Positions 2,763-64,000 of a DNA stretch of 64,000 nt are shown here, piece by piece; position 1 is the stretch's first letter, and every line of letters begins with the position of its first letter. This DNA comes from Seonamhaeicola sp. GTDB taxonomy: Bacteria > Bacteroidota > Bacteroidia > Flavobacteriales > Flavobacteriaceae. The stretch lies in the NCBI RefSeq assembly GCF_028281565.1, contig NZ_JANQJQ010000021.1, forward strand, positions 248,001-312,000. The letters run 5' to 3'. The position numbers and the translations under genes were made by a program. The notes under the pieces are model-generated. The model was not told the DNA's origin. It ran no database searches and saw nothing but the letters and a program-made list of their open reading frames with translations.

Positions 2763-2835
2763 GCGGGAGTAGCTCAGTTGGTAGAGCGTCAGCCTTCCAA
2801 GCTGAATGTCGCCGGTTCGAACCCGGTCTCCCGCT
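2763..2835 (+). tRNA. tRNA-Gly (anticodon TCC)
   Basis: A 73-nt cloverleaf. The acceptor stem GCGGGAG pairs with CTCCCGC, the D-arm contains AGCTCAGTTGGTAGAGC, and the anticodon stem TCAGC/GCTGA encloses loop CTTCCAA with anticodon TCC. The T-arm GCCGG-TTCGAAC-CCGGT is standard. The discriminator is U and CCA is not encoded. A terminator follows directly and there is no integrase next to it. Confidence 0.97.
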
Positions 2836-8671: not shown

Positions 8672-8691
8672 ATTCCCGCGACGGCGGGAAT
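8672..8691. repeat. REP-like palindrome (ATTCCCGC family)
   Basis: A perfect 8-bp stem ATTCCCGC-gacg-GCGGGAAT, preceded by TTGTC, lies directly after the M1 gene. The type is recurrent in flavobacterial intergenic DNA. Confidence 0.7.
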
Positions 8692-8699
8692 CTAAAATT

Positions 8700-8730: not shown

Positions 8731-8752
8731 TTCTATAAAACACGCACTATAT

Positions 8753-8912
8753 TTCTTCAGTAAAAAACGAAATTTTGTACTTTAAAAAATGCAAAATTTA
8801 GTTTCACTTCAGGAACCATCCTTAGACTGGCACAGGGCATCGCTTTATAAGTCCGTAATTTTTTTCATTTGGCTTTCTGAATTTTTAAATGAAAAAAATT
8901 AATGTACTTTTG
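8753..8912 (+). repeat. Promoter-bearing dispersed repeat, copy A (upstream of tatA)
   Basis: About 160 bp in this order: TTCTTCAGTAAAAAACG, inverted repeat 1 (AAATTTTG 8770-8777 / CAAAATTT 8792-8799), the conserved block TTTCACTTCAGGAACC, and inverted repeat 2 (TTTTTTTCATTT / AAATGAAAAAAA). It ends in a -7 box, TACTTTTG, at 8905-8912. Copies with the same order lie at 33082-33218 (minus strand) and 63703-63830, with a shortened one at 20923-20973 (minus strand). Copy A carries about 22 bp of extra spacer between the two inverted repeats. Confidence 0.75.
8905..8912 (+). promoter_or_regulatory. -7 box of tatA, carried by dispersed repeat A
   Basis: TACTTTTG fits TAnnTTTG exactly. It overlaps the first codons of the longest tatA ORF, which argues for a downstream start. 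Confidence 0.65.
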
Positions 8913-20896: not shown

Positions 20897-20922
20897 TTTG
20901 AATTATTTTATCGGTTTCTAAC

Positions 20923-20973
20923 AAAAGTACGTGAATTTTTTGAATACAAAATGTAGTTTTTTACAGAAGAAAA
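20923..20973 (-). repeat. Promoter-bearing dispersed repeat, shortened copy D (upstream of kynU)
   Basis: Read on the minus strand it starts TTCTTCTGTAAAAAACTACA, continues with ATTTTGTA and ends in CACGTACTTTTG. The two ends match copies A-C; the middle, comprising most of both inverted repeats, is missing. The TACTTTTG box (20923-20930) is 27 bp from the kynU start and would drive the kynurenine operon. Confidence 0.6.
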
Positions 20974-33081: not shown

Positions 33082-33089
33082 CAAAAATA
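33082..33089 (-). promoter_or_regulatory. -7 box of lipA-gap, carried by repeat copy B
   Basis: Minus strand TATTTTTG, a TAnnTTTG match 18 bp before the lipA ATG. Confidence 0.65.
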
Positions 33090-33218
33090 CGTGATTTTTT
33101 TCATTTGGAGATTTATCTAGAACTAAATGAAAGAAAATCATGTATTAACGAAGTGGTTCCTGAAGTGAAACTAAATTTTGTATTGTTTTAAACAAAATTT
33201 AGTTTTTTACAGAAGAAA
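33082..33218 (-). repeat. Promoter-bearing dispersed repeat, copy B (upstream of lipA)
   Basis: On the minus strand: TTTCTTCTGTAAAAAACT, inverted repeat 1 AACTAAATTTTG / CAAAATTTAGTT (perfect), conserved block TTTCACTTCAGGAACC, then ATACATGATTTTCTTTCATT and AAATGAAAAAAATCACGTAT, ending in the -7 box. It fills nearly all of the gap between the NRAMP stop and the lipA start. Confidence 0.8.
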
Positions 33219-33234
33219 GATACAAAGTATTCTT

Positions 33235-63588: not shown

Positions 63589-63702
63589 AGAATTAAATTT
63601 TAAGTATTAATCTAAAACCTACAATAAATCGTATCTATTATTAGTTAAGCTAAAATATCATATATATTGCAAAAGAAAAAGCAGTTCTGTTTTTATATAT
63701 TT

Positions 63703-63830
63703 TTTCGGTGAAAACTGAATTTTGTTTAAAAATCAACAAAATTTAGTTTTACCTCAAGAAACGCTTTGCTAATACATGATTTTTTTCATTTGTCAGCGAA
63801 TTTTCAAATGAAAAAAATCATGTACTTTTG
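63703..63830 (+). repeat. Promoter-bearing dispersed repeat, copy C (upstream of the PASTA gene)
   Basis: About 128 bp: inverted repeat 1 (GAATTTTG ... CAAAATTT), the block TTTTACCTCAAGAAAC, and a perfect 20-bp inverted repeat, left arm TACATGATTTTTTTCATTTG (63773-63792) and right arm 63805-63824, with a 12-nt loop. The last two bases of the right arm are the TA of the -7 box TACTTTTG (63823-63830). Confidence 0.85.
63823..63830 (+). promoter_or_regulatory. -7 box of the PASTA gene, fused to the repeat's hairpin arm
   Basis: TACTTTTG, 20 bp before the ATG; its TA is part of the 20-bp palindromic arm. Confidence 0.65.
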
Positions 63831-63850
63831 CGGTATTCAAAATTCTACAC

Positions 63851-64000
63851 ATGAGCCTTGTTAAATTCTTAGTTAGTAAAACATTTTTCAAACAAATTTT
63901 GTTGGCTGTTGTTGCCGTAATCGTATTGTGTGTTTTAATGTTATGGTGGTTAAAAGGCTATACCAATCATGGTGATTTTGAAACCGTTCCGGACTTAAAA
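63851..64000 (+). CDS. PASTA-domain protein, N-terminal part (runs off window)
   Basis: The frame from ATG 63851 is open to the window edge (50 residues). It starts with a cytoplasmic segment and a TM helix (ILLAVVAVIVLCVLMLWWL), then GDFETVPDLK, the start of a PASTA domain. In flavobacteria this gene commonly lies by ddl and codes for a small PASTA protein, often followed by a pseudouridine synthase. Absent from the ORF track because no stop is in the window. Confidence 0.8.
   Translation, partial: MSLVKFLVSKTFFKQILLAVVAVIVLCVLMLWWLKGYTNHGDFETVPDLK

Follow-up and report, generated by a model that had tools for sequence, protein, structure and literature searches.

The repeat observed before four genes of the window, i.e., the whole 64,000-nucleotide stretch of Seonamhaeicola sp. 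DNA that was analysed, is very probably a non-autonomous, gene-less element that inserts directionally into the resident -7 boxes of Flavobacteriaceae promoters and rebuilds them. The target is precise, no host bases are lost, the insertions are directional and dispersed, and their presence is polymorphic between species. The element is non-coding, with a size of approximately 130-160 bp. Copies A, B, C and D were all present in the window and represent four of the approximately 29 loci in the genome; the genes downstream encode TatA, a radical-SAM protein (LipA by sequence), a PASTA protein and kynureninase. The earlier note had reported the four copies, the order of their parts and the genes that they face, and all of this was recovered, chance being excluded by the approximately 29 loci and the 28 carrier genera. 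The positions of the different parts in the window are as follows:

8755-8911, plus strand: copy A, element before tatA, the site being empty in relatives
8748-8754, plus strand: copy A, TATATTT, the left part of the divided -7 box (six relatives that are empty at tatA have TATATTTG)
8905-8912, plus strand: copy A, rebuilt -7 box TACTTTTG, located 12 nt upstream of a GTG start of tatA (8917)
8820-8837, plus strand: copy A, extra internal CCTTAGACTGGCACAGGG-type repeat
33083-33215, minus strand: copy B, element before lipA
33216-33222, minus strand: copy B, TATCTTT, the left part of the divided -7 box (TATCTTTG in the empty genomes G001, G003, G005, G006 and G012)
33082-33089, minus strand: copy B, rebuilt -7 box TATTTTTG, the opposite palindrome arm base being altered to match (G-C to A-T)
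63703-63829, plus strand: copy C, full element before the PASTA gene, private to the source genome among near relatives
63696-63702, plus strand: copy C, TATATTT, the left part of the divided resident -7 box (TATATTT then G in the empty genomes G001, G003, G004, G005, G006 and G012)
63715-63746, plus strand: copy C, palindrome 1 (CTGAATTTTGT ... ACAAAATTTAG)
63773-63824, plus strand: copy C, palindrome 2 with arms of 20 bp, of which the right one extends over the TA of the -7 box
63823-63830, plus strand: copy C, rebuilt -7 box TACTTTTG (putative promoter), located 28 nt upstream of the PASTA gene (ATG at 63851)
20923-20969, minus strand: copy D before kynU, an element with an internal deletion that retains both ends
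20922-20929, minus strand: copy D, rebuilt -7 box TACTTTTG

In copy C, the perfect 20-bp arm of palindrome 2 (TACATGATTTTTTTCATTTG / CAAATGAAAAAAATCATGTA) continues into the TA with which the -7 box at 63823-63830 begins, as had been noticed before, and copy D, previously described as shortened, corresponds to an internal deletion. A different palindrome, CATTCCCGCGACGGCGGGAATC, was visible just 5' of copy A (8672-8692) and resembles another dispersed intergenic repeat.

The consensus can be written TAnnTTT ^ CTTC(T/A)GTAAAAAA-CTAAATTTTGT-loop-ACAAAATTTAG-TTTCACTTCAGTAACCACTTTGTTA-GTCCATGAATTTTTTCATTT-loop-AAATGAAAAAATTCATGTAC-TTTT ^ G, where ^ marks the two junctions with the host. If the ends were joined, as they would meet in an excised form, they would read CATGTACTTTT^CTTCTGTAAAAAAC. 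Each palindrome is preceded by a direct repeat, CTTC(T/A)GTAA. Palindrome 1 is conserved in sequence (42 copies), and palindrome 2, part of which falls within the TAC of the -7 box at the right end, keeps its pairing by compensatory changes. Among 53 copies, 43 cells were altered on both sides, compared with 13.3 in shuffles, none of the 500 shuffles reaching the observed value. The shuffle control ignores relatedness; the slid controls, which account for it, gave a concordant result with 6-18 compensatory cells. The outermost pair of palindrome 2 covaries with the box, being G-C in 44 copies and A-T in four (for example copy B, TATTTTTG). The two palindromes are unlike, their arms CTAAATTTTGT and GTACATGAATTTTTTCATTT having just six local matches in common. 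Terminal inverted repeats were absent, with matches at 1 of 10 and 5 of 20 terminal bases and a local score equalled by 64 of 500 shuffles.

Some copies showed additional features. A CCTTCGAC..GCTCAGGG-type repeat occupied one fixed point between the palindromes in copy A (8820-8837), in L013, L014 and L017, and in L249, L256 and L260 of genome G399; its presence in part of the copies and in two genera corresponds either to a subfamily or to a preferred nested insertion. L253 contained three tandem copies of a related unit. In L009 (G000:C4:148390-148540) the left part was replaced by an inverted right end, with -7 boxes directed outward on both sides, so that this copy is possibly a bidirectional promoter. 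The copies could not be attributed to a coding sequence or an Rfam family, nor to a phage or plasmid record or a viral contig, the viral-contig scan being made with one exact pattern; the absence of an explanatory coding sequence had already been remarked. The element had no match above the gathering score of any Rfam family, and a tRNA gene (2763-2835, plus strand) was the sole Rfam match within the window. The Flavo-1 RNA of Rfam (RF01705) is likewise flavobacterial, hairpin-rich and dispersed, but it does not match the element. One occurrence of Flavo-1 (56.2 bits) was located at L211 1314-1455, directly 5' of an element copy in genome G232.

The approximately 29 distinct loci of the 5.27 Mb genome were counted from BLAST searches with copy B (E down to 7e-35) and with the consensus. 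All 25 copies possessing a right end faced an ORF on the same strand, the start of which was 12-99 nt downstream, whereas just 15 of the 23 intergenic TAnnTTTG sites of the window were promoter-forward. This difference indicates more than random insertion into intergenic boxes, and the uniform orientation reflects either the choice of active promoters or later selection. The 20 downstream proteins tested in Pfam were mutually unrelated; they included radical SAM/LipA, histidine kinase, SAM hydroxide adenosyltransferase, PASTA, lipid A acyltransferase, TatA, kynureninase, RmuC, PolA and Rpe.

The key to the mechanism is a second TAnnTTT, overlooked in the earlier note, which is found directly before the CTTC of the left end when the left flanks of copies A, B and C are read. 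Empty sites were searched in six congeners and two other family members using a chimeric query assembled from pieces of 21 downstream-encoded proteins, and the orthologous upstream regions of the relatives were aligned to the two joined flanks of the source genome. Precise empty sites were present at 12 of the 18 loci and the junction was always TAnnTTT^G or TAnnTTT^A. They are listed below, together with a thirteenth locus, L006:

lipA: TATCTTT^G in G001, G003, G005 and G006, and by eye in G012
PASTA gene: TATATTT^G in G001, G003, G004, G005, G006 and G012
tatA: TATATTT^G in six genomes
kdsD-like gene: TAGTTTT^G in G001, G003 and G012; TAGCTTT^G in G006
ribE: TAATTTT^G in G003 and G012
polA: TAGATTT^G in G003
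trkA: TATATTT^G in G001, G006 and G012
L019: TATATTT^G in G001 and G005
L014: TACTTTT^G in G001
L007: TATATTT^G in G002
L004: TAGTTTT^G in G001, G002 and G003, versus a left box TAGATTT in the source genome
L003: TATATTT^A in G001 and G003, the host base after the rebuilt box being A and not G
L006 (thirteenth locus): TATTTTT^G, versus a left box TAGGTTT in the source genome

No host bases were lost in the comparisons of empty and filled sites. At nearly all empty loci the nn was identical to that of the filled left box, which thus retains the target's own nn (TATC at lipA, TAGT at the kdsD-like gene, TAAT at ribE). The left box, compared over 47 distinct sites of many genera, showed T in 42, A in 40, two variable positions with 11 different nn, then T in 46, 44 and 45. 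At the right box of 47 sites, TA was invariant (47/47) and was followed by C (43/47), T (46/47), TTT (47/47) and G (45/47). The simplest reading of these alignments is that the target contributes the left box and the element the right one. The target nn is not duplicated and TTT is common to both junctions, so that a duplication of 0-3 bp is possible and indistinguishable from none.

The distribution among relatives illustrates the mobility of the element. In a tree built from concatenated gene starts, the source genome adjoins G004 and G005 (83-85% identity), and three sites (L003, the PASTA gene and tatA) were filled in the source genome and empty in both of these genomes. At lipA, a deleted relic was present in G004 and another in G002, while G005, the 90%-identical sister of G004, was cleanly empty. 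A relic was also visible before the PASTA gene in G002, closer relatives being empty. These patterns can arise only if the element was inserted repeatedly at an identical position or was excised precisely. The deleted relics are of varied sizes and retain the right box. Copies within a genome are at most 90% similar, so that the movement looks old and slow rather than explosive, and the activity of the element may be old. Neither a circular form nor a recent insertion within one species was observed.

Carriers numbered at least 34 of the 400 Flavobacteriaceae genomes sampled (a lower bound, with two candidates scored per genome), belonging to 28 of 237 genera and including Hyunsoonleella flava, Confluentibacter sediminis and Wocania ichthyoenteri. 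Among 396 genomes drawn from the phylum, matches were found solely in Flavobacteriaceae. One insertion, before a gene starting with MSELQINTTQNVK, was common to five genera (L237, L240, L217, L219 and L263), with an identical left 20 bp, which suggests purifying selection on this segment and hence a later use by the host. In these five copies palindrome 2 was altered and its pairing still partial.

In the explanation that we favour, the element enters between TAnnTTT and the next base, G or rarely A. Its right end brings TACTTTT, re-forming the box as TACTTTTG at an unchanged distance from the gene, and the old upstream half of the promoter, which now ends in TAnnTTT followed by C, is displaced by approximately 130-160 bp. 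Since the box is split and replaced at the end of the element, the gene would keep its start signal and lose its original upstream control region. Judging from its sequence, the rebuilt right box is probably a working promoter at which transcription would restart. The primary -7 motif of Bacteroidota promoters is TAnnTTTG, and F. johnsoniae yielded no -33 motif (PMC7366714), so that a box stripped of its old upstream half may still work. The movement would correspond to conservative site-specific recombination, with some recombinase acting on the ends of the element, and the right-end hairpin perhaps takes part in it. Old copies would persist because the host gene is not silenced, and some may by now be the gene's standing promoter. 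The suggestion of the earlier note that the repeat is a mobile promoter thus holds for mobility, on account of the copies, the empty sites and the orientation, and not for a promoter dropped upstream of genes, as an existing -7 box is entered and regenerated in situ.

An ordinary conserved operator, inherited vertically in orthologous promoters and bound at its palindromes by one regulator, would be compatible with the protein-site-like conservation of palindrome 1 and with the promoter at which the element is found in five genera, the first 20 bp being constant. It appears very improbable, as most sites are polymorphic among congeners and cleanly empty in relatives with the -7 box whole, the downstream genes have no common function, and many Flavobacteriaceae genomes do not have the element. 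A regulon as the origin of the element was rejected on the same grounds, the genes being unrelated and the sites often empty. What had been envisaged as evidence against mobility, a similarity limited to four loci, vertically inherited and without empty sites, does not describe these data. The alternative of a shared control module, also raised in the earlier note, fails as an origin for the repeat in view of the empty sites and the unrelated genes; it may be a secondary role where an insertion was kept across genera. A classical MITE of a DDE insertion sequence, inserting upstream of genes and possessing an outward promoter by chance, seems highly improbable. The element is short, non-coding, dispersed and intergenic with a promoter-like end, and would supply a predicted promoter to neighbouring genes, as do Correia in Neisseria, BrickBuilt in Porphyromonas and MITEAba12 (reviewed in PMC10969869). 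Unlike them, it has no terminal inverted repeats and no target duplication beyond the ambiguous TTT, it occurs in a single orientation and within the box, which it splits and rebuilds, instead of upstream, and no parent insertion sequence with its ends was found near the left-only matches in the source genome and three others. The term MITE-like, proposed previously, holds for a short, dispersed, non-coding element with empty sites, and only loosely because terminal inverted repeats and a clear target duplication are lacking.

Hairpins near both ends, the absence of terminal inverted repeats, a target duplication that is nil or at most the ambiguous 3 bp, precise empty sites and directional insertion 3' of a short motif are shared with single-strand elements of the IS200/IS605 or REP/REPIN-RAYT types, which are moved by a Y1 HUH transposase. 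This origin is nevertheless improbable. Our systematic enzyme search, which covered Y1 transposases, did not reveal the mobilising enzyme, and Y1_Tnp was lacking in 18 of 24 carrier genomes, all six congeners among them. The two hairpins are unlike, while a single Y1 enzyme would be expected to bind similar ones, and the insertions are made in a -7 box. The source genome has a single Y1 gene, which is RAYT-like (L198; G000:C32, about 9.9-10.2 kb) and flanked by the inverted pair GCGCGGATTTGTAATCCG / CGGATTACAAATCCGCGC, ends unrelated to those of the element; it is a separate mobile family. Thirteen Y1_Tnp matches (L197, L199-L210) were present in G012 (genus g7), and none in the congeners of the source genome. 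Because the element does not show all the defining characters of MITEs, nor all those of REP/RAYT or IS200/IS605 elements, we class the element as a variant of the small non-autonomous mobile elements. With the same box-splitting anatomy, the enzyme could be a tyrosine recombinase comparable to IntDOT, the integrase of CTnDOT-type integrative elements of Bacteroidota; this is our best guess from the comparison of targets, and still rather unlikely as a full account. The attB core of IntDOT, GTANNTTTGC, resembles a -7 box and is nearly the same as the target of the element, integration is in both cases conservative, precise and directional, and box-like sequence is present at both junctions. 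Against this, the observed targets are TAnnTTTG (TAnnTTTA in one case), the flanking G and C of GTANNTTTGC not being required; the crossover is before the G, and GC is not retained on the left. CTnDOT-type elements also differ from a gene-less 130-160 bp sequence present tens of times in a genome. A search that was systematic for Y1 transposases revealed neither an integrase nor an integrative element in association with the copies, and plasmids and phages gave no matches.

Other candidates for the mode of movement were discarded. The left-only matches were considered as possible long autonomous copies; those examined were internal deletions or elements broken by other repeats, and a non-exhaustive search around them in the source genome and three others found no long autonomous copy. 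The motif beside palindrome 2, GTTAGTC or GTTAGTA, does not by eye fit the R box GTTRRRY of integron attC sites. The asymmetry of G-T versus A-C mismatches in palindrome 2 was considered as an indicator of a folded strand; A-C seemed commoner, but the comparison is confounded by the common descent of the copies and by a constraint that differs between the arms, and it was set aside.

As with the well-known integrative elements by which tRNA genes are rebuilt, a vital sequence is entered and then restored from the element's own end, whereas here it is a promoter box that is rebuilt, in many different genes. Our search of the literature found no description of a bacterial element rebuilding the -7 box of ordinary promoters. 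It is tentatively proposed, with a chance somewhat short of even, that the element represents a new class of promoter-specialised, gene-less mobile DNA, which would recognise the -7 box, perhaps as transcription opens it, insert via the right-end hairpin, rebuild the box, and over time replace the upstream control of housekeeping genes across the family. The rebuilding of -7 boxes poses a defined problem, that of an enzyme reading TAnnTTTG, a motif otherwise read by the primary sigma factor, and clean pairs of empty and filled species are available for measuring the effect of an insertion. For Flavobacteriaceae, the element would constitute a natural route to exchange the upstream regulation of core genes such as lipA, polA, tatA, ribE and kynU, the start site remaining unmoved.
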